Shown one piece after another: positions 2,405 to 56,682 of a stretch of 57,616 nucleotides of DNA. The notes under the pieces are model-generated. The model did no database searches. It saw only the letters and a program-made list of their open reading frames with translations, and had not been told where the DNA came from. A program made the translations under genes and the position numbers. Positions within the stretch are counted from its first letter, which is position 1. The number at the start of each line of letters is the position of its first letter. The stretch spans positions 1 to 57,616 of the IMG/VR virus record IMGVR_UViG_3300027801_000025; one strand, written 5' to 3'. This DNA comes from a virus.

Positions 2405-2698
2405 ATGACGTATTTTTATTACAAGACTAACACGTGGAATAGTCAACCACAAGTAACCGAAGACCAAATAGAACTTTGGAAACACCTCGCAGCCAAAAAG
2501 AACTGGAGGATTGTACAACTACCAAATGGTTATTACCAGACGGAACATTTAGACATGCAGAAAGAAGATGTATGGTTAGATGTAACCAGACGAGAAACCC
2601 TAGAGTCTGCAGAAGCAGCTATTGATGGAAGCATTGATCATTATGCTAAAAAGATAGAATTCTTAAAAGGACCTAAAGTAGTAAAGACATTTAAATAA
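2405..2698 (+). CDS. hypothetical protein, 97 aa
   Basis: ATG at 2405 gives a 97-residue soluble protein (begins MTYFYYKTNTWNSQPQ). It combines an N-terminal aromatic stretch, a helix around EDQIELWKHLAAKKNWRI, and an acidic second half with ESAEAAIDGSIDHYAKKIEF. It sits between the first small gene and groEL, and a TAATCTAATCTAATTTA leader separates it from groEL. I do not recognise the family. Confidence 0.65.
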   Translation: MTYFYYKTNTWNSQPQVTEDQIELWKHLAAKKNWRIVQLPNGYYQTEHLDMQKEDVWLDVTRRETLESAEAAIDGSIDHYAKKIEFLKGPKVVKTFK

Positions 2699-2724: not shown

Positions 2725-4290
2725 ATGGAATACAATAACCCTAGCGAGCTAGTGAAGGATTTATCCTTTGGTAGTGATGCTAAAAGTAAAATAATGGCTG
2801 GTGTTGATAAGCTGTCACAAGCAGTTAAGTCAACACTAGGAGCTTCTGGTAAATGCGTAATTTACGAGGATGCTAGAGGTAAACCGGTGATCACAAAAGA
2901 TGGTGTAACCGTTGCGGACAGCGTAGTCTTAATTGACCCGGTTGAGAATATTGGAGCCACCTTAATAAAGGAAGCTGCCAAAAACACAGTGAGAGAAGCA
3001 GGTGACGGTACTACTACAGCTACCGTCCTTGCTCAATCACTTTTAATAGAAGCATCGAAAGCTGAGGAATCAGTGAGAGACATCAAATTAGGCATCTCTT
3101 CGTACGCTAAAAAGATTAACAAGTATTTAGATGATATTGCTATAGAAGTTGAAGGAGACATGTTAGATAACGTAGCTTCAATATCATGTAACAACGATAA
3201 AGATTTAGGCACACTAATTTCTAGCGCTTATACTAAAGTGGGGAAATCAGGTGTGGTATTGATGGAAGAGTCTGAGACTGAACAAACGTACGTTGAAATC
3301 GTAGATGGAGTACAATTGGAATCAGGGTTAAAATCGCCACACCTTATTACTGATAAAGAAAAACAAAAGTGTGAATTAGAAAAACCATTAGTTCTTATAG
3401 TGTCCTCACCGATACCAAATATAAGAAAAATACAACCTATACTAGAGTTTGTTATAAAAAACAAGAGAGCTCTACTTATAGTTGCTGATGTAGAAGCACA
3501 AGTGTCTGCTACATTACTGATGAATAAGGTAAAAGGTAATATAAAAGTAAATTACATCGATCCTCCTGGTTTTGGTCCAACAAAAGCTGATACTATAGAA
3601 GATTTAGCTTTACTAACAGGAGCTCAAGTTATAAACGAAGAGCTAGGAGATGATTTAGATCTTATACAGCCTGATGTTTTGGGTGAAGCTGCTAAAGCGG
3701 TGACTGAAGATAAGGTTACAGTACTTACTATTGAAGATATGAATGATAAAATATCAGAAAGAGTTAAGGATGTAAAGAAAAGAATCAAAGAAGAGACTAA
3801 CCAATATATAAAACGTAGACTAGAACAAAGATTAGCTATGTTAAACGGCTCTGTAGCTGTTGTTAAAGTTGGTGCTGACTCTAAGATTGAGTTAAAGGAA
3901 AAGAAAGACAGAATAGAAGACTCTATATATGCTGTTAAAGCTGCTTTAAAAGAAGGAATTGTTCCAGGTGGAGGAATTGCTTTAGTAGATGCGGCAAGAA
4001 ATGTTAAACCAAAAGGCAAAGGTGAAGAAATATTAGCAAAAGCTATACTTTCACCGTTTTACACTATACTAGATAATGGCGGTATGCAAGGTGTATCACA
4101 CGAAGACCTTGAGGATGGCATCGGAATTGACGTAACGTGTGGTTGTAAAAGAAATATGATAGAAACTGGTATAATAGATCCGGTTTTGGTTACAAAATCG
4201 GCGCTAAAGAACGCTATTTCTGTAGTTTCAACCATTATTTCAGCTGATTGTGTAATAAGTAACGTAAGAATAAGCAATGCAAGCAGTTAA
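2725..4290 (+). CDS. groEL: phage-encoded chaperonin GroEL (Hsp60)
   Basis: A 521-residue group I chaperonin subunit, the ATP-driven ring that encloses substrate proteins under a GroES lid. The equatorial nucleotide-binding signatures are intact: TLGASG near residue 38, TKDGVTVA with Asp59 (E. coli Asp52), GDGTTTATVL with Asp94 (Asp87), and RIEDS with Asp399 (Asp398), followed by GGG at 415-417. An apical-domain match is visible at KADTIEDLALLTGAQVI. It is shorter than the usual 540-550 residues and lacks the C-terminal Gly-Gly-Met tail, ending in SNASS. The last 14 bases overlap groES, so the two are coupled. It probably folds capsid or tail proteins; phage-encoded GroEL is uncommon. Confidence 0.95.
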   Translation: MEYNNPSELVKDLSFGSDAKSKIMAGVDKLSQAVKSTLGASGKCVIYEDARGKPVITKDGVTVADSVVLIDPVENIGATLIKEAAKNTVREAGDGTTTATVLAQSLLIEASKAEESVRDIKLGISSYAKKINKYLDDIAIEVEGDMLDNVASISCNNDKDLGTLISSAYTKVGKSGVVLMEESETEQTYVEIVDGVQLESGLKSPHLITDKEKQKCELEKPLVLIVSSPIPNIRKIQPILEFVIKNKRALLIVADVEAQVSATLLMNKVKGNIKVNYIDPPGFGPTKADTIEDLALLTGAQVINEELGDDLDLIQPDVLGEAAKAVTEDKVTVLTIEDMNDKISERVKDVKKRIKEETNQYIKRRLEQRLAMLNGSVAVVKVGADSKIELKEKKDRIEDSIYAVKAALKEGIVPGGGIALVDAARNVKPKGKGEEILAKAILSPFYTILDNGGMQGVSHEDLEDGIGIDVTCGCKRNMIETGIIDPVLVTKSALKNAISVVSTIISADCVISNVRISNASS

Positions 4291-4534
4291 TTACTACATA
4301 GTAGTCGAAAAGCACAAAGTAGAGCCGAAGAAAGTAGGTGGACTTTTGATAACAGATAATGTAGATGACCAAAACAGGTATATTAAGGCCAATATAGTTT
4401 CTACTGGTAATTTAGTAGAAGGTTTAAAAGAAAATGACATAGTTTTCTTTGATAGACATGCTGGTCATGGTATTCGTTGGAAAGAAAAGCTGTATCATGT
4501 GATACAAATGCAAGATGTTGTATTAGTAGAATGA
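4277..4534 (+). CDS. groES: co-chaperonin GroES (Cpn10), single barrel
   Basis: An 85-residue GroES-like protein, the lid of the GroEL chamber. The N-terminal strand (NYYIVVEKHKVEPKK) is followed by a mobile-loop equivalent, VGGLLITDN, whose hydrophobic LLI matches the Ile-Val-Leu that docks into GroEL. The barrel continues with LKENDIVFFD, matching the VGDIVIF-type strand of GroES, and ends with LYHVIQMQDVVLVE. It is about ten residues shorter than the E. coli protein, mostly around the roof region. It overlaps groEL by 14 bases and the next gene by ATGA. A dedicated GroEL partner is the natural reading. Confidence 0.88.
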   Translation: MQAVNYYIVVEKHKVEPKKVGGLLITDNVDDQNRYIKANIVSTGNLVEGLKENDIVFFDRHAGHGIRWKEKLYHVIQMQDVVLVE

Positions 4535-23212: not shown

Positions 23213-23797
23213 ATGAGAAGCGTTTTCAACTATGTAGTTGAGCCTGTTGGTTCAAGGTACAATAATACAAAAAAGATAGACGGAAACGATCTGATATTAA
23301 ATACTCAGATTTTTACTCATCAAAGTGTTAATAGGTTAGCTGTTGTTAAACATGTACCTATCATCGGTAATCATAAAATACAAGTAGGTGATCACGTTAT
23401 AGTACACCACAACGTGTTTAGAAGGTTTCACGATATAAAAGGAAGAGAAAAAAACAGTAAAAGCTATATAGATGAAGATAACTACCTATGTGGTATTGAT
23501 CAAGTCTATGCTTACAAAAAAACAAAATGGATGCCTACTGAAGGATATGCTTTTGTAAAACCAATTCAATCTAATTATATATTTAGTACTAGCAAGGAAC
23601 AACCATTAAAAGGTATTTTGAAAATAGTTCAAGATAATCCACACTTAAAAGAAGGAGACTTAGTTGGCTTCACACCAAATAGTGAATATGAGTTTGTTAT
23701 TGATGGAGAAAGACTTTATAGAGTTAGATCAAAAAACTTAACAATAAAGTATGAACATCAAGGAAACGAAATTGAGTATAATCCAAGCTGGGCATAA
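23213..23797 (+). CDS. probable double-barrel GroES-like co-chaperonin, 194 aa
   Basis: Two successive halves resemble Cpn10. Half 1 (about 1-105): a first strand FNYVVEPVG, a loop with DLILNTQ where GroES has its GGIVLTG mobile loop, then KIQVGDHVIVHHNVF and NYLCGIDQVYAYK. Half 2 (about 108-183): EGYAFVKPI, a shortened loop, GILKIVQDNPHLKEGDLVGF and LYRVRSKNLTIKYE. Both fit the pattern LKENDIVFF and LYHVIQMQDVVLVE of the phage groES at 4277. The layout is like chloroplast Cpn20. It is encoded just ahead of the terminase and head genes. The call is from pattern, not from a search. Confidence 0.6.
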   Translation: MRSVFNYVVEPVGSRYNNTKKIDGNDLILNTQIFTHQSVNRLAVVKHVPIIGNHKIQVGDHVIVHHNVFRRFHDIKGREKNSKSYIDEDNYLCGIDQVYAYKKTKWMPTEGYAFVKPIQSNYIFSTSKEQPLKGILKIVQDNPHLKEGDLVGFTPNSEYEFVIDGERLYRVRSKNLTIKYEHQGNEIEYNPSWA

Positions 23798-24026
23798 AGC
23801 AGTTGAAGAATTAATTAAAGTTGCTAAAGAAGCTATCGTTGATTCAGGAGATGATATAACGGCAGATAGATTAAAAAATGCTGCTGCTACAAAAAAGTTA
23901 GCTATCTTCGATGCTTTTGAAATACTTGCTAGGATACAAGAAGAAGAAGATATGATTAATAATAAACCTAAAGAACAAGTTGCTGAAACTTCTTTTGGTG
24001 GTTTTGCAGAAAGAAGATCTAAGTAA
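23751..24026 (+). CDS. probable terminase small subunit, 91 aa
   Basis: A short, wholly helical, charged protein (MNIKETKLSIIQAGHKAVEE, then ADRLKNAAATKKLAIFDAFEILARIQEE) directly before the large terminase gene, overlapping it by TAATG. The size and place match small DNA-recognition subunits of packaging motors, which are weakly conserved. Its start lies 47 bases inside the previous gene. The role is inferred from position. Confidence 0.55.
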   Translation: MNIKETKLSIIQAGHKAVEELIKVAKEAIVDSGDDITADRLKNAAATKKLAIFDAFEILARIQEEEDMINNKPKEQVAETSFGGFAERRSK

Positions 24027-26242
24027 TGTATAATCAAAGTTTATTTAAGGTTGTAGAACCTATAAAAATAAATACCATAAAAAGACTTAACAAGTCTAAA
24101 AAATGGGAATACGGTTATAACAAAGAACATGATATAGTTGTTATAAGTAAGACTGGTCAGATTGGCGAGATATATGATATACAAAACTTTAAAGTAGCTT
24201 TACCAAAAGCTGTTAATGTTACTAAGTTTGAGAATGATAAATGGGAGGTGGCAGAATACCCTAAAGAGTTAAAAAGAATAAAAACTATATTTGACTGGAA
24301 AAATTATCCTGATGATTTTAAAGGTAAGTATATAGATTACATAGAAGATGAGTTTCAAAAAAGAGAGGAAGGTTTTTGGTATTACAACAAAGGCGTTCAA
24401 ACTTATATTACTGGCTCTCATTATATGTACCTGCAGTGGTCCAAAATTGATGTTGGTAAACCAGATTTTAGAGAAGCAAACAGATTATTCTATATATTTT
24501 GGGAAGCTTGTAAAGCAGATAAAAGATCATACGGAATGTGCTACCTTAAGAACAGGCGTTCAGGTTTCTCATTTATGTCATCAGCAGTATGTGTTGATAT
24601 GGCAACCATCTCTTCAGATTCTAGATTCGGTATTTTATCTAAATCAGGACCAGATGCTAAAAAGATGTTTACTGATAAAGTTGTACCAATATCCGTTAAC
24701 TACCCGTTCTTTTTTAAACCAATACAAGACGGTATGGACCGTCCAAAAACAGAACTTGCATATAGAGTACCCGCTAGTAAACTTACTAGAAGAAGTATTG
24801 TTAAAGCAAGTGATACCACCGGGGTATTAACTGGGTTAGATACAACAATAGATTGGAAAAACACAGGTGATAACAGTTACGATGGTGAAAAATTAAAACT
24901 ATTAGTCCACGATGAAAGTGGTAAATGGGAAAGGCCAAACAATATATTAAATAACTGGCGTGTAACTAAAACAACACTTAGGTTAGGTAGTAGAATAATT
25001 GGTAAATGTATAATGGGGTCAACCTCTAATGCTTTAGATAAAGGTGGAGACAATTTTAAAAGATTATATAAAGACTCAGACGTTACTAAAAGAAACAGGA
25101 ATGGACAGACTAAGTCAGGACTCTATTCTTTGTTCATTCCTATGGAGTGGAATTACGAAGGATTCATCGATTCTAATGGAGTACCTGTTTTTGACACTCC
25201 AAATGAAGAAGTGGAAGGCCCGTACGGGGAATTTATAGAAACTGGAGTAATTGATAACTGGAACAATGAAGTAGAGGGTCTTAAGAACGATCCTGATGCA
25301 CTTAATGAGTTCTATAGACAGTTTCCACGTACTGAAGAACACGCTTTCAGAGATGAGACAAAAAACAGTATATTTAATTTAGCTAAAATATACGAACAAA
25401 TAGATTTTAACGAAGAATTAAACGTTGCGAACTACGTTACTAAAGGTAATTTTCAATGGGTCAATGGTGTTAAAGATACAAAAGTTATATTTTACCCTGA
25501 CAACAACGGTAGATTTAGAGTTAGCTGGACACCACCAGCAAATTTACAAAACAACGTTATAATAAAAAATGGTGTTAAATACCCAGGTAATGAGCACATG
25601 GGTGCTTTTGGGTGTGACAGTTACGATATATCGGGTACTGTAGACGGTGAAGGATCTAAAGGTGCTTTGCACGGATTAACAAAATTTAGTATGGAAGATG
25701 CACCACCAAACCAATTCTTTTTAGAATATGTATCAAGACCAGCAACTGCAGAAATATTCTTTGAGGATATGCTAATGGCTTTAGTTTTTTATGGAATGCC
25801 AATACTTGCAGAGAACAACAAACCACGTTTACTATACTACTTAAGAAGAAGAGGTTACAGAGGTTTCAGTATGAATAGACCAGATAAAGTCTGGAACAAA
25901 CTTTCTGTAGCTGAAAAAGAAGTAGGTGGAATACCTAATTCAAGTGAGGATATAAAACAAGCTCACGCTGCTGCTATTGAAATGTACATACAAGATCACG
26001 TAGGTAAAAAACAAGATGGTAGTTATGGTAGAATAAATTTTAATAGAACGCTAGAAGATTGGGCTAAGTTTGATATAAACAATAGAACAAAATTTGATGC
26101 GTCAATATCTTCAGGTCTAGCTATCATGGCTTGTAATAGACATCTATATAAACCAAATGCCAATATAAAGAAAGAAAAAATCAATTTAAAATTTGCTAGA
26201 TACAAGCAGTCTGGTAACAGATCAAAACTAATAGAAAATTAA
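24026..26242 (+). CDS. terL: terminase large subunit (packaging ATPase/nuclease)
   Basis: 738 residues. The ATPase part has a deviant Walker A, KNRRSGFS (Lys175 to Ser182), with the Lys placed early as in lambda gpA (KSARVGYS), and a Walker B LLVHDE with Asp296 and Glu297. The C-terminal nuclease is of RNase H type; FGCDSYD with Asp531 is the likely first metal ligand. An N-terminal extension of about 120 residues precedes the motor. It cuts concatemeric DNA and pumps it into the prohead through the portal encoded next. The size is above the usual 450-650. Confidence 0.9.
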   Translation: MYNQSLFKVVEPIKINTIKRLNKSKKWEYGYNKEHDIVVISKTGQIGEIYDIQNFKVALPKAVNVTKFENDKWEVAEYPKELKRIKTIFDWKNYPDDFKGKYIDYIEDEFQKREEGFWYYNKGVQTYITGSHYMYLQWSKIDVGKPDFREANRLFYIFWEACKADKRSYGMCYLKNRRSGFSFMSSAVCVDMATISSDSRFGILSKSGPDAKKMFTDKVVPISVNYPFFFKPIQDGMDRPKTELAYRVPASKLTRRSIVKASDTTGVLTGLDTTIDWKNTGDNSYDGEKLKLLVHDESGKWERPNNILNNWRVTKTTLRLGSRIIGKCIMGSTSNALDKGGDNFKRLYKDSDVTKRNRNGQTKSGLYSLFIPMEWNYEGFIDSNGVPVFDTPNEEVEGPYGEFIETGVIDNWNNEVEGLKNDPDALNEFYRQFPRTEEHAFRDETKNSIFNLAKIYEQIDFNEELNVANYVTKGNFQWVNGVKDTKVIFYPDNNGRFRVSWTPPANLQNNVIIKNGVKYPGNEHMGAFGCDSYDISGTVDGEGSKGALHGLTKFSMEDAPPNQFFLEYVSRPATAEIFFEDMLMALVFYGMPILAENNKPRLLYYLRRRGYRGFSMNRPDKVWNKLSVAEKEVGGIPNSSEDIKQAHAAAIEMYIQDHVGKKQDGSYGRINFNRTLEDWAKFDINNRTKFDASISSGLAIMACNRHLYKPNANIKKEKINLKFARYKQSGNRSKLIEN

Positions 26243-29900: not shown

Positions 29901-31370
29901 ATGGCTTTTAATTCAACAGGTGCTGCATTAGCACACCTAACGCCAAGACCAGACAAATCTTTGTTTGCTGGCAATTACCTGTCTATCACAGGAAACGATT
30001 TCAATTTCACAAAACAATTCTTACCAGAAGTTTATGAAAAAGAAGTTGAAAGATACGGAAATAGAACTGTAGGAGGTTTCTTACGTATGGTAGGAGCAGA
30101 AATGCCTATGGCATCTGACCAAGTAGTTTGGGCAGAGCAAGGTAGAATTCACGTAGCATTTGACGATTGTTCATTAGCTGCAGGTGGTGACGCTGCTTTA
30201 AACAAAATTACATTTTCAAGTACTGCTAACGCTGCTTACATTAACATTGGAGACACTGTTGTAATAAGCAAAGGTGGTAAAACTGCTAAATGTTATGTTA
30301 CTGCTAAACCATCTACAACTACTATTACAGCTGTACCTTACAAAGCTACTGCTTTAAACGGTGCTGCTGCTGGAGCTTTCAGTAACAGTGGTGCAACAAC
30401 AGCATTAAGTTTGTTTGTATACGGTTCTGAATATGGAAAAGGATCTATAAACGTTGGTAATACTTTAAATGCTCAAAGTGAGTACTTTAATAACTCACCA
30501 ATAATTATAAGAGACAAATATTCTGTAAACGGATCTGACACTGCTCAAATTGGGTGGGTCGAAGTTACAACTGAAGTTGGAACATCTGGATACTTATGGT
30601 ACTTAAAATCTGAGCACGAAGCTAGATTAAGATTCGAAGATCAATTAGAAATGACTATGATTGAAGCTGAAAAAGCTGCACATTCATTCTCTGCTGATCC
30701 AGGAGTTGGATCTAACTCTTTCACTGTTAAAGGTACTGAAGGTATGTTTGCTGCAATCGAATCAAGAGGATTAGTTTACTCTGATGCTGATTTCGGTGGC
30801 GCAGCTGCTGATGACGGTTTAGCTGATTTTGACCTTATCTTACAAGAACTAGACAAGCAAGGTGCTATCGAAGAAAACATGATGTTCCTTAATAGAGGAG
30901 TATCTCTTGCTATCGATAACATGTTAGCTGCTCAAAATTCTTACGGAGCTGGAGGTACATCTTACGGTGTATTTGACAACTCTGAAGATATGGCGCTTAA
31001 CCTAGGATTCTCAGGATTTAGAAGAGGTTCTTACGATTTTTACAAGACTGATTGGAAATACCTTAACGACTCTACAACTAGAGGTTTAGTTAAAGATATT
31101 GAAGGAGTTATTGTTCCTGCTGGAACTTCAACTGTTTACGATCAACAACTTGGTAAAAACATTGCAAGACCATTCTTACACATTAGATACAGAGCTTCTG
31201 AAGCTGATGATAGAAGAATGAAATCTTGGATTACTGGTTCAGTTGGTGGAAACTTTACTTCTGATGAAGACGCGATGAACGTTCATTTCTTATCTGAGAG
31301 ATGTTTATGTGTTCAAGGAGCAAACAACTTTGTTCTACTTAAGTCTGCTGATGGTGTAATTGGTGACTAA
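29901..31370 (+). CDS. major capsid protein, 489 aa
   Basis: Follows the scaffold with a TTAAAAATT leader and is followed by a terminator, as expected of the most highly expressed gene. It has an N-terminal arm (LTPRPDKSLFAGNYLSITGN), a helix-rich region (FLPEVYEKEVERYGNRTVGG), an inserted Ala/Thr-rich beta domain (about 85-180) and a long core (HEARLRFEDQLEMTMIEAEK, RASEADDRRMKSWITG). An HK97-type fold is likely. Codon choice looks more uniform (frequent GCT, GGT, AAC) than in neighbours, which fits strong expression. Confidence 0.85.
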   Translation: MAFNSTGAALAHLTPRPDKSLFAGNYLSITGNDFNFTKQFLPEVYEKEVERYGNRTVGGFLRMVGAEMPMASDQVVWAEQGRIHVAFDDCSLAAGGDAALNKITFSSTANAAYINIGDTVVISKGGKTAKCYVTAKPSTTTITAVPYKATALNGAAAGAFSNSGATTALSLFVYGSEYGKGSINVGNTLNAQSEYFNNSPIIIRDKYSVNGSDTAQIGWVEVTTEVGTSGYLWYLKSEHEARLRFEDQLEMTMIEAEKAAHSFSADPGVGSNSFTVKGTEGMFAAIESRGLVYSDADFGGAAADDGLADFDLILQELDKQGAIEENMMFLNRGVSLAIDNMLAAQNSYGAGGTSYGVFDNSEDMALNLGFSGFRRGSYDFYKTDWKYLNDSTTRGLVKDIEGVIVPAGTSTVYDQQLGKNIARPFLHIRYRASEADDRRMKSWITGSVGGNFTSDEDAMNVHFLSERCLCVQGANNFVLLKSADGVIGD

Positions 31371-42393: not shown

Positions 42394-45300
42394 ATGAACG
42401 AACTAGAAAAAATCGTACAGCGCATGATCGAGGCTGGTGAGCCTGAAGAGAATATAGCAACTGTTATACAATCTTACAACTCGCCGGGAAAGACATCGGA
42501 TCCTGTACAAGTGGAGTCAAACACGGGATCAGAAGATACGGACTCCAATTCGGTAAATACTTTGTCGGAATCACAAGAGGAGAATAACGATTTTGAAGAT
42601 TTTCTTGGACAAGATTACGTAGATGCTAAAAACAAAGAGGCTAAAGGTAAAGGAGACATGGGTTTTCTTTATGGAGCTATTGACTGGGTATCTGATATAG
42701 GTAGATCAGGAAGCGCTGGTTGGGATTTGGGTGGAACACTAGATTCTTCGTTAAACCTACATAACAAAGGTATGTCTGGAATGAGTGAATCTGAAAAGGA
42801 AGAGCTAGTTAAAGACATGAATACATCTTTGAATATAGGTAGAACAGATGAGATGAAAGCTTTTGACGATGCATATGCTAAAAATGTAGAAAAACACGGT
42901 GGTATTAAAGCTTTTTTCATGGGTTGGTCAGAAAACAAAACCGTGATGACTCAGTACTCTATGCAATCTATGGCTATGATGGCCGCTTCTCTAGGGAACG
43001 GTGAATCAATAAAAACTGCCTTAAAAGGAGGTGCAGCTGGTTTTGGAGTTGGATTTGCAGCAAGTAAGTATGGTAAAATGATTCCTGGTAGAGTTGGAAA
43101 AGCTTTAAGCACTATAACAGCTTTACAAGGAGCTGGTGGTGGACTTATGGGTGGTATATCAAAAACTTTAGAAAAAGGTTTTACTACTATGGATCTTTTA
43201 AATGAAAAAGGAGCTGAAGTGTATGGTGATAAATGGACTTCAAGCTCAAGTGAAGGTAAATTATCAATGCTTGAAGAAATGACCTCTAACAAAGATCTTT
43301 ATGATGATATAAAAAGTAAAGCTGTAGCTAGAGGTAATACAATTGGTTTTGTAGACGCTGTAACAGGTATGGTTACGTTAGGAGTTGGTACAAGTATAGG
43401 TAGAGGAGCAGCTAAAAGCTCTTTATCAAGAGGTACAAAGTTACTACAAGCTGGTGGTATGGCTGCTACTGAAACAGCTGGTGGAATAGTTAGTGAAATA
43501 GGTGGTCAAATTGCTGCTGGACAAGATATAGATCCAAAAGAATATTTGTTAGAAGGTGTTGCTGATAAAACATTTACATTAGCTTCAACTGTTAAAAGAG
43601 GAATAAGAAACAATCCTAAGTATAAAATTAACGGTGAAGAGATGAATGGCAAAAGGTTTCAAGAGACCGTAATGTCTTTAGATGATGAAGCTTTTGTTGG
43701 TGGTGATTTTTCAGTAGAAAATAGCCCTGTTATGAATCAAATAATTCAAAACAGACAACAAGACATTAACATAGATATGGATATAAACAGCCAAGTTAAT
43801 GACGTGGCTGATAGAGCTAAAATAATAAAACTTGAAAGAGAAGTTAATTCACTATCTGGTAAGTCAACAGTTTCTTCTAAAAACAAAGCTTCTAGTTTAA
43901 AACAACAAATAAAAGAAATTGAGTTAAAATACGAAAACAATCAAGACGTAGCTACTCAAGATCAAAGAAAGCAAGCTATAGCTCAAGCAAGATCTAATAA
44001 GTTTGACAATGCTTACAATAAAAACTATAAAGCTGTAGAGTCTTTTGCAAAAAAGAAAGGTTTAAATGTTTTAGATTTTGAAAACGAAAATGACTATTTC
44101 AATGCTATTGCAAAAAACCAAGGTATAAGCTTCGAGCAAGCTAAAAAAGCTTCAAAATTATCTGACGGGGCTTTTGTTGGAAAAGGTGAAATATTTATAA
44201 ACAAAACTAGAGCAAGAGAGGTTGGAGCGGTAACAGTAGCTCAGCATGAAGTATTACACCCTATACTTAACTCTTTAATAGGTGGTATAGGTAGTCAAGG
44301 TAAAATAGTAAATGAGTTTAAAAAACAACTAAACTCTAAGCAAAGAAAAATAATAGAAAAAGCTCTAGGTGATCAACCAAGCGACACTGAATATTTAAAT
44401 GTTTTTACTGATAATTTTGATGCTGTAATGGCAGAGCAAAATATAACACAAAAAATTAGTGACTTTTTTAAAGATCAGTTCGTTAAGCTAGGCTTTGAAA
44501 ACATTAATTTTGAAACAGGTGACGGTATATATAACTTTCTTAAAGAATACAATACAAGTATTAAAAAAGGTAAGTTAAGTGAAAGAGCTGAAAAAGCTGT
44601 TGATAAAGCTGAAAGTAAAGCTAAAACAAAGATTAGCGATGTAGATGTTGCTGATAAAGTACAGTACTCACAAACGTCAGCTGAAGCTCAGAAGGTTAAC
44701 GACATATATGAAAACACACCTAATAAAACAGAAGCTGGTTTTGAAATAGCTATGTTATATAGAGGTATGGCTGAAAGTGTATTTAAGTCATTAAGAGACG
44801 GGAGTGGTTATGTTCAGGATCAAGTAGATGTTATCAATGATAACAAAGACGATATGATACCTATGATGCTTTACGATAAAATACCTAGTCAAGCTTCAGA
44901 TTCTAAAGCTAGAAATGTTTTAGGTTTAGTTCAAGATTTTGAAAAGGAAAAGCAGAAATACGGTAACGTTGCTGCGTATATAAATACATTCTTTAAAAAT
45001 AGATCAAAAGAAGTTTTTAAATACTTTGTGCCAGATGCAGTACTAGAAGGTTTAAATAAAGAAGATGGTACTTTAAAGACAGCTGTTAAGAAAAAGAAAA
45101 ACACTGTAGCTAAAGAAGAAACAGGTCCTGTTGCTAGAAAAGCTACTAGCTTTGATAAACTAAAGGATGGAAATAATAAAGATTTTTACAGTGAAACAAT
45201 TAAAAGAGATGTCATAAAAGATGTTGGTATGATACTGATTAGAAACATTGGTAGAAAGAAAATTAGCACTGATAATATAATAGAAAACATAGAGGAAAAC

Positions 45301-48300
45301 GTTGACAAGCATATATCTAGAACTATCAAAGATCAGATGGGTGATATAAGCAATAAAAAAGGTCAACTAGAAGTTAGCTCTAAATATAAAGAATTTATAA
45401 ATGATAGCTACCAAGTGGCTATTAAGTCTTTTCCTTTGAGTTCTATAAAGAAATCATACGGTAAGCTATTTAAGCTTGAGAAGCTAAGTAGAGAGAAAAC
45501 AGCAGTAGGTAAGGGTGTTTTTAAAATGACAGCACCTACAAGAGCTGAGTGGGGTGCGCATCACACTATAGGTCGTTATACAACGCTTAAAGCTAGACAG
45601 TTAGTTTTAGCTAAAGAAATGGCTGCTGATTTTAATAAAACAGAAGTTAGTAAATTATTAACAGACGGGAAATTTATTGAAAAGCTACTTGAGGTTGCTG
45701 ATCTTAGTAATGTTGAGTTACCCGCTATAGTTTTAGATCAAACTATTAAAGATATAAACGTAGGGTTAGATAGAAAGATAGATGAAAGTAGAAGTTTTGA
45801 CACCACTATTCAGTTCAGTCAAACAATGTACGACTCTAAACAAAGCGAAGCTGTTATAAAAGCTTTAAAAACTCCATACGCTAAACATGTATATAGAACT
45901 AACTACATAGAAAGAACCAACGAAAGATGGTTAGTAAAAGCTATATCTCAAGTGCTAAAAGCTTCTGATATAAAAGATGCTAGAAAAATAGCTGAAGAAT
46001 TAGGAAAACCTTGGATGGCGAAAAACACTGTAGCTAAAGAAAAACAAAAAGGTCTAGATTTTGCTATAGATAATTTACATACAAAAATAACTGGAGGTGA
46101 GGTAACTGTAAGAGCTTTAAACGCTAAGCACGGTATTAAAAGTATAGTAGATTTAAATAGTTTAGATGGTGTTAATAGTGCTAGAAAAGCCATAAATTAT
46201 ATATCTAAAAAATTAACCAAAAGTGAGTTTATAAGAGGTATATATCAGGGTGTTACAAATCCAGCTAGAGTAGCAGGTTTTGAAGTTAATGATAATGTTG
46301 GATTAGAAATTAAAAAATCTGAGGCAACAGCTATACCAGAGTTTAAAAGCAATGGTAAAAGAAATAAAGCGTATTACTCGGCATTTAAAAACACTAAAGA
46401 TATAAATAAAAACGTAAATATAGAATCTACGAAAGACAGCTTTAGAGACGGTAATATAACTAAAAAGGATTGGTATTATGGAAATCCATTCAACAAACTT
46501 GATGATAACGGTAAAAAAGCTTTTGTAAAAAAATTATATGATAGCAGTTTAGAAGATAGACGTATATTGTTAAAGCTTGCAGATGTGTTAAGAAAAGGTA
46601 TTGTAGATGGTGATTTAACATACCAACAAGTGCAGTGGGTTTTAGTAACTCAATTTGGTAACATGGTTGGTGTTGGTAAAGCAGCGGCTGGTCCTAAGTT
46701 TTTAATGTTAGATAAGAATGATAATGTATTAACATTTAAAAATTTTTCAGATAAGAAAAAAGATCCAGGTGTACTAGAGCACATGATACCAGCTGATTAC
46801 ATAAAAGGATTAGTTTATGATTATGTTATAACGGGTAATAAAGAAACTTTAGTTGCAGAATTAGAAAATTATGCTACGTTGGTTTTACCAGATGTGATTG
46901 ATAAAAAACTTAGAGAAGATGGTACTCAATCAGCTATGGGTATAGATCACAAAGTAGGATCTAAACCTACTGATAACAGATATTCAGGTACAGGATTAAG
47001 GTTATATGACGTTTCTACAGGTAAGATTATAGACACGGGATTACAATACTCTAAAACAGAATACAATAAATCGGCTAACATAATAAAAGCTGAAAATATA
47101 GTTAATGGTCCACCAAAAGGTATAAGTGTATTTGACTTTGATGACACACTTGCTCAAACTAATAGTAAGATATTAGTGACAATGCTTGGTGGTAAGAAAA
47201 TTAAGATAGATGCTACTGAGTTTGCGCTACAGTCTGCTGATTTAGAAGCTGCTGGTGCAAAGTTTGACTTTAGCGAATTTAATAAAGTTATTGAGGGTAA
47301 GAAAGGTCCTTTGGCTGATCTTGCATTAAAAAGACAAGGTAAGTTCGGAAGCAAAGATATATTTGTATTAACCGCTAGGCCACAACAAGCTGCGTATGCT
47401 ATACATGCATTTTTAAAAGGTATTGGTTTAGATATACCTATAGATAATATCACAGGCTTAGAAGATGGCAAAGCACAAGCTAAAGCTGATTGGATAGCGG
47501 AAAAAGCTGCTGATGGTTATAACGATTTCTACTTTGCAGATGATGCTTATAAAAACGTCAAAGCTGTACAAGATACATTAAACCATTTAAATTTAAATCC
47601 AAACGTAGAACTAGCTAAGATTCAATTTAGTAAAAGTAATTCAGATATATTTAATGATATACTAGAAGGAACTAAAGGTGTTAAGTCAGAAAAAAGATTT
47701 AATCCTGCAGCGGCTAAAGCTAAAGGTGCTACTAGAAAAAACAGTTGGTTTATACCACCTGGTGCAGAGGATTTTCAAGGCTTGATATATCAATTTTTAA
47801 CTAAAGGTAAAAGAGGAGAGTTACAAAAGAAGTTTTTTGAATTAAGATTGTTTAAACCTTTCGCTAAAGCTAACGCAGCTATGAATAGAGCTAAGCAAGC
47901 TTACGTTGACGGTTTTAAAGCTATAAATAAAAGATACCCTGGAGTAAATGAAAAGCTAAATCAAAAGCTTAGTAAAGGTGAATACTTTATGCAAGATGCT
48001 GTTAGAGTTTATATATGGAACAAAACAGGTCAAGTAGTTCCTGGTATGGATCAAAATGAAGTTCAATCTTTAGTTAACTTTGTTGAAAAGTACTCAGACA
48101 TAACGGCTTACGCTAATGACATAATCAATATGTCTAGAGATACAAACTACATAAAACCTAGTGAACATTGGTTAGATGGTAGCGTTGCTAGTGATATACA
48201 AGATCTAACGTCTAAAGAAAACAGAAAGAAGTTTCTTGGTGAATGGATAAAGAATAAGAATGAGATATTCTCTAAAGAAAATCTAAATAAAATAGAGGCT

Positions 48301-49680
48301 ATATATGGTGAAGACTATAGATCTGCTCTTGAAGATATTCTATGGAGAATGGAAAATGGAACAAATAGATCAATTGGCACCAACAAATTAGTTAATAACT
48401 TCATGAATTGGGTGAATAACTCTGTAGGAGCTATTATGTTTTTCAACATGAGATCCGCTGTTCTTCAGACCATATCTATGGTTAACTTTATAAACTGGTC
48501 AGACAACAACCCTGTTAAAGCAGCAGGCGCATTAGCTAACTTTGATCAATACATAGAGGATTTTAGCACTATATTTAATTCAGACATGTTAAAACAGAGA
48601 AGATCTGGATTACAAACAGATGTTAGTCACGCTGAATTAGCTAAATCAATAAGAGGTAGAGGTAATACACCAAGTGCTTTATTGAAAGAGTTATTAAGAT
48701 TAGGTTTCACACCAACGCAAATGGCAGATAGTTTTGCTATTGCTTCAGGTGGTGCTACTTTTTATAGAAACAGAATTAAAACATACGTTGGACAAGGTTT
48801 AACAAAACAACAAGCTGAAGCACAAGCTTTTGAAGATTTTGCTGAAATATCAGAACAATCACAGCAATCATCTAGACCAGATTTAATATCACAACAACAA
48901 GCTGGTCCATTAGGTAGATTGATATTAGCTTTCCAGAATACACCGATGCAGTATACTAGATTAATTAAAAAATCTATACTAGACCTATACAACGGTAGAG
49001 GAGATGCTAAGACACACATATCAAAAATAGCTTACTATGGTCTTGTACAAAATTTAGTTTTTACAGCTTTACAAAACGCTATATTTGCATTAGCATTTGA
49101 AGATGATGAAGAGGACAATAAAATACTAGATGCTAAAGGAGCTAGAATGGCTAACAGTATGGTTGATACTATACTTAGAGGTACCGGTGTTTATGGTGCT
49201 GCTGTATCTACTATAAAAAATGTATTGCTTAAATTCAAACAACAAGAAGATAAAGGTTGGAACGCGGATCATACTTATACAGTTATTGAGTTTGCTAATC
49301 TCTCTCCTCCGATAGGAAGTAAAGCTAGAAAGTTGTACTCAGGTATACAAACCTGGAAATTTAATAAAGAAGCTATTGCTGATTACGGACCAGGTATAGG
49401 TAATCCTATATATCAAGCCTTTGGTAATGTTGTAGCTGCAGGAACAAATATTCCGCTAGATAGATTGTTTAATAAGATCAATAACCTTAAAGCAACTCTA
49501 AATAGTCAAAATCAAGCATGGCAGAGATTTGCTAACTTCTTAGGTTGGAACACTTGGGATGTAGGATCTGTTGCTAACCCTAAGTTAGAGAAATTAAAAA
49601 ACAAGAAACGTAAGAAAAAAAGATCTTCAAGTAAAACTAAAGATGCTTACGAAGCTTACAAAAAACGTAAAAAAAATTAA
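42394..49680 (+). CDS. giant polyvalent internal virion protein with metallopeptidase and HAD motifs, 2428 aa
   Basis: In order: an N-terminal helix (IVQRMIEAGEPEENIATVIQ); Gly/Ala-rich hydrophobic stretches at about 190-270 and 305-375, suited to membrane insertion; a zinc peptidase motif HEVLH (His618, Glu619, His622); a HAD phosphatase with DFDDT (Asp1581, Asp1583, Thr1585), LTARP (1659-1663) and FADD (1714-1717); helical C-terminal regions, and a Lys/Arg-rich tail. A motif (I/V/L)Q(Y/F)S(Q/K)(T/S) recurs at 756, 1139, 1550 and 1743. Its place is that of T7 gp16-type ejection proteins, so it probably enters the host with the DNA. Exact enzymatic roles are unproven. Confidence 0.75.
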   Translation: MNELEKIVQRMIEAGEPEENIATVIQSYNSPGKTSDPVQVESNTGSEDTDSNSVNTLSESQEENNDFEDFLGQDYVDAKNKEAKGKGDMGFLYGAIDWVSDIGRSGSAGWDLGGTLDSSLNLHNKGMSGMSESEKEELVKDMNTSLNIGRTDEMKAFDDAYAKNVEKHGGIKAFFMGWSENKTVMTQYSMQSMAMMAASLGNGESIKTALKGGAAGFGVGFAASKYGKMIPGRVGKALSTITALQGAGGGLMGGISKTLEKGFTTMDLLNEKGAEVYGDKWTSSSSEGKLSMLEEMTSNKDLYDDIKSKAVARGNTIGFVDAVTGMVTLGVGTSIGRGAAKSSLSRGTKLLQAGGMAATETAGGIVSEIGGQIAAGQDIDPKEYLLEGVADKTFTLASTVKRGIRNNPKYKINGEEMNGKRFQETVMSLDDEAFVGGDFSVENSPVMNQIIQNRQQDINIDMDINSQVNDVADRAKIIKLEREVNSLSGKSTVSSKNKASSLKQQIKEIELKYENNQDVATQDQRKQAIAQARSNKFDNAYNKNYKAVESFAKKKGLNVLDFENENDYFNAIAKNQGISFEQAKKASKLSDGAFVGKGEIFINKTRAREVGAVTVAQHEVLHPILNSLIGGIGSQGKIVNEFKKQLNSKQRKIIEKALGDQPSDTEYLNVFTDNFDAVMAEQNITQKISDFFKDQFVKLGFENINFETGDGIYNFLKEYNTSIKKGKLSERAEKAVDKAESKAKTKISDVDVADKVQYSQTSAEAQKVNDIYENTPNKTEAGFEIAMLYRGMAESVFKSLRDGSGYVQDQVDVINDNKDDMIPMMLYDKIPSQASDSKARNVLGLVQDFEKEKQKYGNVAAYINTFFKNRSKEVFKYFVPDAVLEGLNKEDGTLKTAVKKKKNTVAKEETGPVARKATSFDKLKDGNNKDFYSETIKRDVIKDVGMILIRNIGRKKISTDNIIENIEENVDKHISRTIKDQMGDISNKKGQLEVSSKYKEFINDSYQVAIKSFPLSSIKKSYGKLFKLEKLSREKTAVGKGVFKMTAPTRAEWGAHHTIGRYTTLKARQLVLAKEMAADFNKTEVSKLLTDGKFIEKLLEVADLSNVELPAIVLDQTIKDINVGLDRKIDESRSFDTTIQFSQTMYDSKQSEAVIKALKTPYAKHVYRTNYIERTNERWLVKAISQVLKASDIKDARKIAEELGKPWMAKNTVAKEKQKGLDFAIDNLHTKITGGEVTVRALNAKHGIKSIVDLNSLDGVNSARKAINYISKKLTKSEFIRGIYQGVTNPARVAGFEVNDNVGLEIKKSEATAIPEFKSNGKRNKAYYSAFKNTKDINKNVNIESTKDSFRDGNITKKDWYYGNPFNKLDDNGKKAFVKKLYDSSLEDRRILLKLADVLRKGIVDGDLTYQQVQWVLVTQFGNMVGVGKAAAGPKFLMLDKNDNVLTFKNFSDKKKDPGVLEHMIPADYIKGLVYDYVITGNKETLVAELENYATLVLPDVIDKKLREDGTQSAMGIDHKVGSKPTDNRYSGTGLRLYDVSTGKIIDTGLQYSKTEYNKSANIIKAENIVNGPPKGISVFDFDDTLAQTNSKILVTMLGGKKIKIDATEFALQSADLEAAGAKFDFSEFNKVIEGKKGPLADLALKRQGKFGSKDIFVLTARPQQAAYAIHAFLKGIGLDIPIDNITGLEDGKAQAKADWIAEKAADGYNDFYFADDAYKNVKAVQDTLNHLNLNPNVELAKIQFSKSNSDIFNDILEGTKGVKSEKRFNPAAAKAKGATRKNSWFIPPGAEDFQGLIYQFLTKGKRGELQKKFFELRLFKPFAKANAAMNRAKQAYVDGFKAINKRYPGVNEKLNQKLSKGEYFMQDAVRVYIWNKTGQVVPGMDQNEVQSLVNFVEKYSDITAYANDIINMSRDTNYIKPSEHWLDGSVASDIQDLTSKENRKKFLGEWIKNKNEIFSKENLNKIEAIYGEDYRSALEDILWRMENGTNRSIGTNKLVNNFMNWVNNSVGAIMFFNMRSAVLQTISMVNFINWSDNNPVKAAGALANFDQYIEDFSTIFNSDMLKQRRSGLQTDVSHAELAKSIRGRGNTPSALLKELLRLGFTPTQMADSFAIASGGATFYRNRIKTYVGQGLTKQQAEAQAFEDFAEISEQSQQSSRPDLISQQQAGPLGRLILAFQNTPMQYTRLIKKSILDLYNGRGDAKTHISKIAYYGLVQNLVFTALQNAIFALAFEDDEEDNKILDAKGARMANSMVDTILRGTGVYGAAVSTIKNVLLKFKQQEDKGWNADHTYTVIEFANLSPPIGSKARKLYSGIQTWKFNKEAIADYGPGIGNPIYQAFGNVVAAGTNIPLDRLFNKINNLKATLNSQNQAWQRFANFLGWNTWDVGSVANPKLEKLKNKKRKKKRSSSKTKDAYEAYKKRKKN

Positions 49681-53021: not shown

Positions 53022-54740
53022 TTATCCGTCACAAGCTAAACAATCTTCATTCATAGCTTGACTAGCAATGTCTCCACGTAATACAGACTCAGTACGAGTA
53101 TAGTATAAAGTTTTAACACCCTTTTTCCAAGCTTCAAAATGAACTTTGTTTATCCATTTAGGTGTAGCTACACTAGGAAAAGCTAAATTCAAACTAACCG
53201 ATTGATCTACATATTGCTGTCTCAATCCAGCCTGATTAACTAATTCTAGTTGATTAATCTCCTTAAAAGTTTTAAATACCTCCTTTGCGGTGACGCCGTG
53301 CGCCATAACAATATCATCAAGCTCAGCAATATCTTGTATGCTACCACCGTCAGCAAGGATCTTGTTCCATGTCTCTTCATTGTTTATTTTCAGTTTCTTT
53401 AACAACTTAACTAAAGTAGGGTTTTTTCTTATGAAAGTGCCTTTAGCAGTTTGCTCCGTGAACACGTTAGCAGCCCAAGGTTCTATCCCCGGCGAAACAT
53501 TCCCACTAAGCTTACTGTTAGAAACAGTGGGAGCCACAGCGCGTAGATGAGTATTACGCATACCAGTTCCAGAACACCATAAAGGTTCTCCGTAAGTTTC
53601 AGCCAATGCCATTGAAGCTCTTTCACTTTCAATTTTGATCTGACTAAATATTTTCCTAGTCTCAAACTGAGCAAGTAAACCTTCGAAGCTGATCCCTTTC
53701 TCTTGTAGGTACGTATGCCAGCCCAATACTCCAAGGCCAAGCGCTCTGCCTTTGGTAGCTGAACGGATTGCATTTTCAAATCCTCGTAAACCTTTAGCTC
53801 TTTGTATAAACTCCTCCATGACTCCATCGAGAAACCATATACTATCGTAAATAAGGTTTGTACCTTTCCATTCTTCATACTTTGCTAAATTTAATGATGA
53901 CAAGCAACATACAAAACTGTGATTTTCATCAGTATGTAGTGTTATCTCAGAACATATGTTTGTCATGTGAACTTTGAGACCGTTATCTTTATATGCTGTT
54001 GGGTTATTTTTGTTTGTATTGCCCTTAAATAAAATATAAGGTTCTCCAGTTGCTTTACGCTTTTGAAGTAACTTACTCCATCTCTTTCTAGCATCTTTAT
54101 CTCCTCCTTCAACCCTTCGCATAAACTTGTCGCCGACCACAGCACACTGGTGTAGGTTGAGGGATTGACGATTAACGTCTCCTTTAGGTTCTCTAATTTC
54201 GAGCCAATCTTCAAAATCGGCATGTTCAATATTGATGTTAACTGAAGCAGCTCCTCGTCTGACAGATCCTTGATTAGTTGCGAGTATTGTTGAATCGTAT
54301 ATTTTACAAAAAGGCACAACGCCGTCACTTGTTCCATTACCTGTTATATTAGCGCCAGCGGGTCTGATTTGATTAATACCGATACCAACTCCACCGCCGT
54401 GCTTAGCGAGTAGCATCATCTCTAGATTTTTTTGGCCTATGTCTTGTATGCTATCAGCCACGTCGATACCAAAACAGCTAATAGGTAGACCACGATCAGT
54501 ACCGGTATTACTAAGTACCGGACTAGCCAAGCATAACCATCCGTTCCAAATATACTCGAAGAAAGTTTCTGCCATTTCTGGTTTATATAATCTACGAGCA
54601 ACCGTCTTTGCAACTCTTTGATAAGCTTCCTTTGGTGTTTCTCCGTGATATAAATACCCTCCAGAGATCGTTTTTTTGTATACTTCGGTGTCTCCCCACT
54701 TTGGGTAGTCTTCACCTTTTTTCCATTCATTGTTCCACAT
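53022..54740 (-). CDS. nrdA: ribonucleotide reductase class I large subunit
   Basis: 572 residues, the catalytic subunit making dNDPs. Conserved sites: ISCFG with Cys89 (E. coli Cys225), NICSEI with radical Cys263 and Glu265 (Cys439, Glu441), VCCLSSLNL with Cys278 (Cys462), LYYTRT with the Tyr pair, and a C-terminal CLAC (Cys567, Cys570) for re-reduction. The N-terminal ATP-cone regulatory domain is absent, as in other phage forms, so dATP inhibition should be lost. ATG at 54740 overlaps the stop of the gene before it (TAATG), in an operon with nrdB. Confidence 0.95.
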   Translation of the reverse strand: MWNNEWKKGEDYPKWGDTEVYKKTISGGYLYHGETPKEAYQRVAKTVARRLYKPEMAETFFEYIWNGWLCLASPVLSNTGTDRGLPISCFGIDVADSIQDIGQKNLEMMLLAKHGGGVGIGINQIRPAGANITGNGTSDGVVPFCKIYDSTILATNQGSVRRGAASVNINIEHADFEDWLEIREPKGDVNRQSLNLHQCAVVGDKFMRRVEGGDKDARKRWSKLLQKRKATGEPYILFKGNTNKNNPTAYKDNGLKVHMTNICSEITLHTDENHSFVCCLSSLNLAKYEEWKGTNLIYDSIWFLDGVMEEFIQRAKGLRGFENAIRSATKGRALGLGVLGWHTYLQEKGISFEGLLAQFETRKIFSQIKIESERASMALAETYGEPLWCSGTGMRNTHLRAVAPTVSNSKLSGNVSPGIEPWAANVFTEQTAKGTFIRKNPTLVKLLKKLKINNEETWNKILADGGSIQDIAELDDIVMAHGVTAKEVFKTFKEINQLELVNQAGLRQQYVDQSVSLNLAFPSVATPKWINKVHFEAWKKGVKTLYYTRTESVLRGDIASQAMNEDCLACDG

Positions 54741-55003
54741 TATTTTATAAAATGAGTTAACCAGGCTATAAGCCCATTAATATTTAACGCAACAAGGTTC
54801 CATTGTTTTCTTGAAGACGTTTGCATAATAACACATAAAAAACCTACTATAAATAATCTAGGTTCTAGTGTCCATTGTCCTGCTATCAGAAAACCCGCAC
54901 CCATATAACCTATACGGGATGCGAACTTTTGATATGACGTTAGTTTGTTAGTATATCTTAAAAACTTTAATAATCTATACTTCCAACGTCTTTTTCTATT
55001 CAT
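54740..55003 (-). CDS. small membrane protein between nrdB and nrdA, 87 aa
   Basis: I choose ATG at 55003, which overlaps the nrdB stop (TAATG); a GTA-linked ATG at 55009 would add two residues. A basic N-terminus (MNRKRRWKYRLLKFLRY) is followed by hydrophobic segments at about 31-47 (GYMGAGFLIAGQWTL), 49-63 (RLFIVGFLCVIM) and 71-86 (LVALNINGLIAWL). It would be a two- or three-pass membrane protein. Its coupling on both sides to nrd genes is odd; the function is unknown. Confidence 0.65.
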   Translation of the reverse strand: MNRKRRWKYRLLKFLRYTNKLTSYQKFASRIGYMGAGFLIAGQWTLEPRLFIVGFLCVIMQTSSRKQWNLVALNINGLIAWLTHFIK

Positions 55004-55971
55004 TACCATATGTCTTCGAAGTCTTCTCCTTCGTTAGCTTTCGAGTAATCCGTTGGCCTAATACTGAAAAAATCAGTATGAGTGACGCCCCCGGTAAGAT
55101 GGTAAAACCAATCAAGGCTAGCTGCTGCTTTAGAGTCATATGCAAAATACGACCCCAAGTCAACATAACCGAGTTCCACAAGTTTTTCATTTGTTCTTTT
55201 TCTAATAAATTGTTTTAAATCATTTGCTTTAATACCTTCAATGTCACCCATTTCAAACATTTTGTCAATATAGTTTTCTTCTAGCTTAACCATAGTGACT
55301 GCTGCTTCAGTTGTGTCTTTACGACAGGCTTCTAATAAAGTACTATCTTCTTGGCACATCTGTCTAAACAACTGACAACCCATTTTACTGTGTAAGCTTT
55401 CGTCTCTTACAGACCATTTCATTTGCTGTCCAATCCCTTTAAGTAGGTTGCGTAGCTGAAAGCTATAAAGTACAGCAAAGGCACTATAAAGGCTAACGCC
55501 TTCAGCAAAAGCGGAGAAAATTGCCAAGGAAGTTCCAATGCCAACATGGCTAGTGCCACTGTAAGCAACCAGATTATCAAAACGATCGGCTGTCGCAGGT
55601 TCGTGTAAAAACGCTTCATAGTCTTCTAGTTTTAGTGATTCATTTAAGTAGCTGTAAGCTACAGCATGTACAGTTTCTTGAGAACCGAACATCATTGCCA
55701 TTTGTTGTATTTCGTGTTTAGGAAACCAACCAACAACTTTTTGTGTCCAGTAATCTGATACAGCACATTCAGTTTGTGCAAAGCCTAATAGTATATTACC
55801 TACTAAGTTTTTTTCTTCATCTGTTAATTTTTCATTCCAATCTTTAATATCACTTTGCATTGAGATTTCAGTATGTAACCAAAATGCTTGTGCTTGTTTT
55901 AACCAACCCTCAGTGTAATACTCAGGGTATTCAAACGGTTTGTACGCTATGCGCTCGTCAAACAAACCCAT
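55003..55971 (-). CDS. nrdB: ribonucleotide reductase class I small subunit
   Basis: 322 residues, the radical-generating partner of NrdA. Metal ligands by alignment with E. coli R2: Glu68 (Asp84), Glu99 and His102 in QETVHAVAY, Glu157 in FAEGVSLY, Glu191 and His194 in RDESLH. Tyr106 occupies the place of the radical Tyr122. The C-terminus (ANEGEDFEDIW) is the acidic tail that docks into the large subunit. Start overlaps the stop of the gene before it (TAATG). Shorter than cellular R2, like other phage forms. Confidence 0.95.
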   Translation of the reverse strand: MGLFDERIAYKPFEYPEYYTEGWLKQAQAFWLHTEISMQSDIKDWNEKLTDEEKNLVGNILLGFAQTECAVSDYWTQKVVGWFPKHEIQQMAMMFGSQETVHAVAYSYLNESLKLEDYEAFLHEPATADRFDNLVAYSGTSHVGIGTSLAIFSAFAEGVSLYSAFAVLYSFQLRNLLKGIGQQMKWSVRDESLHSKMGCQLFRQMCQEDSTLLEACRKDTTEAAVTMVKLEENYIDKMFEMGDIEGIKANDLKQFIRKRTNEKLVELGYVDLGSYFAYDSKAAASLDWFYHLTGGVTHTDFFSIRPTDYSKANEGEDFEDIW

Positions 55972-56117
55972 TACTGCTTGAATATTTCTAGTGCAACATC
56001 TATAAAAGGTATGTATAGCACATGAGTGGTTTGTGTTTCTTCTTCGTAAGACCTACACCCTAGTAGTATACCAGGGTAGAAGCCTAATGACAGGCTCCAA
56101 TTCTTTTTTTCTTTCAT
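55971..56117 (-). CDS. tiny hypothetical protein, 48 aa
   Basis: ATG at 56117 gives MKEKKNWSLSLGFYPGILLG, then CRSYEEETQTTHVLYIPFID and a last VALEIFKQ. Its start overlaps the stop of the gene before it (ATGA) and its stop overlaps the nrdB start (TAATG). The NWSLSLGFYPGILLG...HVLYIPF pattern is, to my knowledge, a conserved short phage protein near nrd or replication genes, function unknown. It looks like a small beta-sheet protein. Confidence 0.75.
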   Translation of the reverse strand: MKEKKNWSLSLGFYPGILLGCRSYEEETQTTHVLYIPFIDVALEIFKQ

Positions 56118-56275
56118 ATATTGTAATCTTTACATTGTTTTAATAAGTCTTTATATCTAATTACTCCGAACTGCTCCCATCTCCATTTGATCCACGTGTT
56201 TAATTTCCGTTCGCCGTACTTTTGCCTGGATATTCTTTTTCCTTCTCCAGGATTAATCTTACTGTCTCGTCGCAT
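56114..56275 (-). CDS. small basic protein overlapping the nuclease gene, 53 aa
   Basis: ATG at 56275 opens 53 codons (MRRDSKINPGEGKRISRQKY, then GERKLNTWIKWRWEQFGVIR and a C-terminus reading YKDLLKQCKDYNI). The first 76 bases lie inside the 3' end of the nuclease gene in another frame. The stop overlaps the next start (ATGA). The Trp-rich, coherent sequence and the fit to the coupled operon make it convincing. It is basic and might bind nucleic acid. Family not recognised. Confidence 0.7.
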   Translation of the reverse strand: MRRDSKINPGEGKRISRQKYGERKLNTWIKWRWEQFGVIRYKDLLKQCKDYNI

Positions 56276-56682
56276 TCTTTATGATTTTGAGGTTTATATA
56301 ATGTAAGTGGTCCTAATCTTCTTTCGGTTATAAGCTTTTTGAAAAGCTTCCACCTAAGTGGAAACGATTCATTAGCTCTACCTTTAGTTTCAATTATAAA
56401 ACCCTTACCCACGAAGTCTGGCGTATATTTAATGTTTAGTATTTTCTTACTACCTCTGTTTTTGTATTCCCCTTTACCATTACCACATCTTTCGTATGAT
56501 TGGAACGGAAAATCAAAAGCTTCAGATAGCTCAAACGTTTGGCCTTCATACAAAGATGTTATCTTTGCTTTACGTAAGGCCATATACATATATCGCTCTA
56601 GCCCAGAAGCAAAGTTGATACCATCATATGTTATCTTCTTTGATTGTACTGGGCCTTTTTTTCGTTTATAAAGCTTCTTCAT
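56200..56682 (-). CDS. PD-(D/E)XK nuclease, DUF1064-like, 160 aa
   Basis: A small nuclease: KKITYDGINFASGLERYMY with Glu in the first helix, and YTPDFVGKGFIIETKGR with the Asp, Glu and Lys of the PD-(D/E)XK core (DF...IIETKG). These match DUF1064 phage nucleases, related in fold to Holliday-junction and very-short-patch enzymes. It may cut branched or host DNA. A 17-base overlap joins it to the gene before it, and its 3' end also encodes the start of the next gene. Confidence 0.82.
   Translation of the reverse strand: MKKLYKRKKGPVQSKKITYDGINFASGLERYMYMALRKAKITSLYEGQTFELSEAFDFPFQSYERCGNGKGEYKNRGSKKILNIKYTPDFVGKGFIIETKGRANESFPLRWKLFKKLITERRLGPLTLYKPQNHKECDETVRLILEKEKEYPGKSTANGN

Follow-up and report, generated by a model that had tools for sequence, protein, structure and literature searches.

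The window analysed here (the whole stretch of 57,616 nucleotides, an IMG/VR virus record) is a fragment of a marine Flavobacteria phage that carries a groEL gene followed by groES (Table 1). Both open reading frames are intact, score above the Pfam cut-offs and match PHROG families, so that the initial annotation of a complete phage-encoded GroEL-GroES pair holds, including the 14-base overlap of the two genes (4277-4290, both on the + strand). The Cpn60_TCP1 domain (PF00118, E 2.7e-50) covers residues 30-513 of GroEL and positions 1-488 of the 490 in the model, and its score of 171.9 bits against a cut-off of 34.3 indicates a full-length Cpn60 domain; the match to PHROG 5725 ("chaperonin groEL") has an E-value of 2.6e-131. 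GroES has a Cpn10 domain (PF00166, E 7.9e-8, 32.7 bits against a cut-off of 21.1) with its mobile loop, which reads KKVGGLLITD, i.e., the GGLLI motif pointed out before is retained. It also matches the PHROG "co-chaperonin GroES" (E 6e-11), and the profile of its family matches solved Cpn10 structures with E-values from 1e-12 to 1e-13.

The genes bordering this pair are conserved too. The block groEL-groES-dn146 was retained in 80/80 relatives (a GroEL-centred set), and the association of groEL with groES is therefore not due to chance. The small ORF up97 is found 5' of groEL in 77 of these relatives, and in two of the three exceptions the sequence 5' of groEL is just a few hundred bases long; a Pfam search with up97 gave zero matches. 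On the other side, the true start of dn146 lies at 4531, in an ATGA overlap of 4 nt with groES. The conservation of dn146 beside groES (47-92%) exceeds that of GroES, and the best Foldseek matches of its model all belong to the MarR family (top E 2.8e-3, prob 1.0). Relatives of dn146 adjoin groES on the opposite strand in MW202828 and in the elemo phages, and are near groES in Panino. This predicted winged-helix protein may regulate the chaperonin module.

Table 1. Features of the window, with the evidence for each assignment.
Feature	Position	Strand	Evidence or remark
up97, small conserved ORF directly 5' of groEL	2405..2698	+	present in 138 loci
groEL, group I chaperonin subunit, 521 aa, 55.9 kDa, without GGM tail	2725..4290	+	Pfam PF00118, PHROG 5725
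groES, co-chaperonin, 85 aa, mobile loop GGLLIT, roof hairpin shortened	4277..4534	+	Pfam PF00166
dn146, predicted winged-helix (MarR-like) protein, 146 aa	4531..4971	+	AF2 pLDDT 85.6
cpn194, predicted tandem Cpn10 (Cpn20-like) co-chaperonin, 194 aa, 22.6 kDa	23213..23797	+	PHROG 13932, AF2, Foldseek, hhalign
Terminase large subunit (TerL)	24026..26242	+	PHROG 6681, E 3.5e-165; lineage marker
Candidate major capsid protein, 489 aa, 52.6 kDa	29901..31370	+	PHROG 13704 (virion structural), E 1.2e-97
One ORF of 2428 aa, late module	42394-49680	+	
Ribonucleotide reductase large and small subunits, Holliday junction resolvase-like and MazG-like genes	53022-57494	-	

The terminase of the window matched 87 phage records; apart from one environmental record, all were from Flavobacteriia phages. 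MW202828 came closest (63-65% identity), followed by Elemovirus (44%) and by phi38:1 and Pachyviridae (both ca. 37%). The host is probably a relative of the Flavobacteriia. A weak Pfam Crass_capsid match of the candidate capsid protein (E 0.0014) would fit with a crAss-like group. In two relatives the large terminase was divided between two neighbouring ORFs (L071, G014:C1:37226-39366; L129, G019:C1:16605-18747) with different break points; these are either true split genes or assembly frameshifts.

The pair is real, but its rarity had been overstated in the initial annotation, since pairs are known in many phages. By tblastn we found 272 phage records with a relative of GroEL; groEL and groES are both present in Elemovirus, MW202828, phi38:1 and immuto. 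The paper on phage EL had already stated that some phages possess both. Likewise, Nishimura 2017 describes GroEL from the phi38:1-containing group 2 (36 environmental genomes) and relates these proteins to Cellulophaga phage homologs (PMC5332604). The GroEL-GroES operon in such phages is thus already known; what is added here is the test for an old lineage, the pattern of changed residues and a double-domain lid.

The initial annotation had proposed a phylogeny against host Bacteroidetes GroEL as the way to tell capture from an old phage lineage, and the tree obtained (64 rows, LG+C20+F+G4, the window family accounting for 18 rows) indicates the latter. The window GroEL family formed a single clade (support 100/100) with a long stem, outside the sampled cellular GroELs. 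A further branch (100/99) separated this family plus the GroELs of MW202828, elemo, phi38:1 and Panino from cells and other phages; the tree contains four very long branches and the deep joins among phage GroELs are unsure. Captures can be detected by this method, as the GroELs of phages DAC16 and Va1 nested among bacteria belonging to the groups of their hosts. These two phages also speak for considering the window genes as a copy of the host GroEL-GroES, an auxiliary gene pair taken from the Flavobacteria host and working as it does there, and the same fold, the same ATP site and the two-gene operon would all be expected from such a copy. We regard this origin as highly improbable. The closest bacterial GroELs among the matches listed (84,980 GTDB genomes) had 37-42% identity and were spread over many phyla, and constraining the family to group with Flavobacteriales GroELs was rejected (AU test, p 2.8e-56). 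The phage order is groEL-groES, whereas the aligned cellular loci have GroES 5' of GroEL, and the loss of the C-terminal tail, of a ring contact and of apical residues (see below) is clade-wide. Near identity to a host GroEL with disrupted motifs, which had been named as the sign of contamination or of a decaying copy, was not seen: the best match among those listed was ~42%. A decaying gene was likewise discarded, with ORFs intact and motifs invariant across the family. In one relative (record L317, G031:C1:57234-58772) the GroEL match holds one in-frame TGA.

The marine Flavobacteriaceae phages of the phi38:1-like and crAss-like types have groEL and groES as in the window, but the identity of the window GroEL to those of Elemovirus, MW202828 and phi38:1 is only 36-39%. 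In the case of MW202828 it is 37%, although the terminases are 63-65% identical. A swap of GroEL between lineages was considered for this mismatch and rejected, because the long relatives also have lower identities to the window in GroEL than in TerL; a faster divergence of GroEL accounts for the mismatch without any swap. This is the opposite of what would be expected for a chaperonin.

To describe what has changed, we compared 167 GroELs of the window family (mutually non-independent) with 77 cellular ones. Residue numbers are those of the E. coli GroEL and GroES sequences, verified at known positions, and the conservation counts are independent of the numbering. The nucleotide-binding Asp59, Asp94 and Asp399 singled out in the initial annotation align with E. 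coli D52, D87 and D398, and they are invariant (167/167), as are the equivalents of T30, T89-91, S151, G414 and D495. The residues for nucleotide binding and hydrolysis of a group I chaperonin are hence all present, and the hinge residues G192 and G410 are kept too. The apical face is different. Y199, a tyrosine in 77/77 cellular GroELs, is L or I in 162/167 of the family; Y203 (76/77 cellular) is H in 137/167; and L234 (72/77 cellular) is Q in 166/167, while the equivalent of L237 is kept in 166/167 and the position of F204 is occupied by F, L or W. Since conserved apical residues (Y199, Y203 and L234) have changed, binding of an ordinary GroES and of ordinary substrates is not assured. Elsewhere, G375 (77/77 cellular) is mostly replaced by S, K or Q, and the pair D83-K327 (D-K in 73/77 cellular) appears with swapped charges (K/R-D/E) in 123/167, a reversal that suggests a maintained interaction.

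The second region affected is the contact between rings. The segment N457-Y476, which carries the right-hand inter-ring contacts, has 14-16 residues in 160/167 of the family against 20-21 in 75/77 cellular GroELs, the residues aligned with the ring-ring contacts E461, S463 and V464 are missing in 163/167, and the position of A109 is gapped in 114/167. These losses could be expected from a single-ring chaperonin that prevents aggregation, with GroES and cpn194 in secondary roles; known examples from phages, the chaperonins of OBP and AR9, consist of one ring and work without a co-chaperonin. We find this alternative quite unlikely: a groES with a conserved mobile loop is kept beside groEL in the relatives, EL-type chaperonins have diverged much further from GroEL (an identity of 22-25% is quoted for EL), and residues missing from an alignment do not establish the number of rings.

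As had been noticed, the window GroEL lacks the C-terminal GGM tail, which was found in 0/167 of the family against 72/77 cellular GroELs. Its absence says little on the window phage in particular because it is clade-wide and extends to other crAss-like phage GroELs. The specialisation for a phage substrate that the initial annotation derived from it is plausible, but the tail is poor support, and a better one comes from the altered apical residues, the shortened ring-ring contact and a GroES without roof. The roof segment has 10 residues in 173/179 phage GroES, compared with mostly 14-19 in cellular ones, and the window GroES is without the typical bacterial roof hairpin. This hairpin is not obligatory, as gp31 is without one. 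Taken together, the altered features of GroEL and GroES support a changed fit between ring, lid and client.

The operon account, right about the pair, was incomplete, as a second gene of the GroES family had been overlooked. This gene, cpn194, is located ~19 kb from groEL-groES, upstream of the terminase large subunit gene, and matches PHROG 13932 ("co-chaperonin GroES") with an E-value of 4.6e-17. Its AF2 model (50 sequences, pLDDT 83.5) had as top PDB matches in Foldseek the chloroplast Cpn20/Cpn23 chains 7ekq_R and 7ekq_Q (E 4.6e-5 and 1.2e-3, respectively), aligned end-to-end; the alignment with Cpn20 had 206 columns and a TM of 0.55. Single Cpn10s and gp31 ranked after them. An independent BFVD model of the phi18:3 homologue aligned end-to-end as well (TM 0.7), and the tandem fold is predicted there too. 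When cpn194 was split at residue 106, hhalign matched the C-half to cellular GroES (P 3.6e-9) and, more weakly, the N-half to phage GroES (P 1.9e-6), with column-shuffle controls at P 0.03 or worse. The two halves did not match each other in hhalign, the whole profile compared with phage GroES was not significant, Pfam gave no Cpn10 match for the window-type family, and sequence searches of the PDB with cpn194 found nothing. The homologues in Pachyviridae do exceed the Pfam cut-off. A chance PHROG match was dismissed on the half-by-half hhalign, the AF2 fold and these Pachyviridae members. From the predicted fold and the matches of the halves, cpn194 is predicted to be two fused GroES (Cpn10) domains in a single chain. 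Domain 1 has an LIL-type tripeptide (residues 27-29) placed like IVL in GroES and hydrophobic in 50/50 sequences; the tripeptide was also looked for in the loop of domain 2 and was absent, so that a GroEL-binding loop was found in one of the two domains. A literature search, with subscription journals mostly outside it, found nothing linking phages with tandem GroES.

Homologues of cpn194 are located just 5' of the terminase in MW202828 (annotated as hypothetical), elemo ("chaperonin cpn10"), phi38:1 and Pachyviridae ("co-chaperonin GroES"). GroEL, cpn194 and TerL were found together in 31/31 long records of the clade (50-71 kb), which were selected by the presence of GroEL or cpn194. The linkage of cpn194 with a phage GroEL is not strict. 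Four Pachyviridae genomes (phi18:3, phi19:3, phi46:3 and phi13:2) have a cpn194 homologue of ~200 aa and a small Cpn10 (85 aa), and GroEL is absent from the four, i.e., records NC_021794, NC_021789, KC821622 and KC821633 (L326-L329) contain two GroES-family genes and zero GroEL. Therefore, cpn194 is not tied to the phage GroEL, and it might have a different role or work with the GroEL of the host. The double-domain protein is probably older than the phage GroEL, or independent of it, and the host GroEL may have been its first partner. Gundelvirus had neither Cpn60 nor Cpn10 matches.

This distribution, together with the location in the virion module just 5' of the terminase in the window, MW202828, elemo, phi38:1 and Pachyviridae, would also be expected if cpn194 re-used the GroES fold for virion assembly or in association with the terminase, or if it capped a different ring, e.g., ClpP; it is from a chloroplast ClpP complex carrying Cpn11/20/23 that the closest solved structures are taken. 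We consider such a role unlikely, given that the GroEL-binding tripeptide of domain 1 is always hydrophobic. A weak hint that cpn194 is absent from the virion is that the neighbouring virion genes of phi18:3 were annotated from MS/MS and the cpn194 homologue by similarity only.

Our preferred explanation, which we hold to be probable, is that of an old phage-owned group I chaperonin with two lids that folds virion proteins; the genes, their conservation and the clade are observed, and from them we infer the function. The GroEL subunits would assemble into an ATP-binding and ATP-hydrolysing ring, and GroES, judging from the residues retained, would cap it through the GGLLI loop. cpn194, encoded in the virion gene module, would probably be an alternative or mixed lid. 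The clients are most likely large virion proteins, e.g., the 53-kDa capsid protein. The absence of a GroES roof, as in gp31, and the alterations of the apical face point to mutual adaptation of ring and lid, and to their adaptation to phage clients, rather than to a host copy. A more specific version, in which a GroEL whose ring-ring interface is reduced carries a seven-domain hetero-oligomeric lid (e.g., one GroES and three cpn194), as an independent viral parallel to the chloroplast Cpn60/Cpn10/Cpn20, is in our opinion speculative and rather improbable, and has a precedent in the plastid mixed rings of Cpn10/Cpn20 with seven domains.

Phage GroEL-GroES pairs are known; differences between the ring of a phage and that of its host have been described mainly from a few jumbo phages. 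The clade described here retains the ATP engine, while the face that binds the lid, the contact between rings and the roof of the lid are altered and a double-domain lid is present in addition. Cellulophaga phi38:1 and phi18:3 as well as the elemo phages, all distant relatives, are culturable, so a mixed or alternative viral lid and its clients can be tested now. The GroEL of phi38:1 has been detected by MS in infected cells and in free-virion samples.

To our knowledge, double-domain lids are otherwise known only from plastids. Chloroplast Cpn20 and cpn194 both have two GroES-like domains head to tail. The likeness is one of fold only, sequences giving no evidence of common descent, and a chloroplast origin is not claimed; cpn194, unlike Cpn20, has the binding tripeptide in domain 1 only and is encoded in phages beside the terminase. 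With EL gp146, OBP gp246 and AR9 gp228 the window GroEL shares being a phage-encoded GroEL-type ATPase, but those are co-chaperonin-free and far more divergent, while the window encodes groES next door. In the phi38:1-containing group, the accessible part of Nishimura 2017 mentions GroEL and neither a double-domain lid nor changed ring or apical residues (PMC5332604). Finally, T4 gp31 is a phage lid without the roof loops of GroES (PMC6318259), a loss generally believed to aid in serving the ~56-kDa capsid protein gp23, and in this it resembles the window GroES. The latter is, unlike gp31, shorter and not longer than GroES, and while T4 relies on the GroEL of its host, the window phage encodes its own ring as well.
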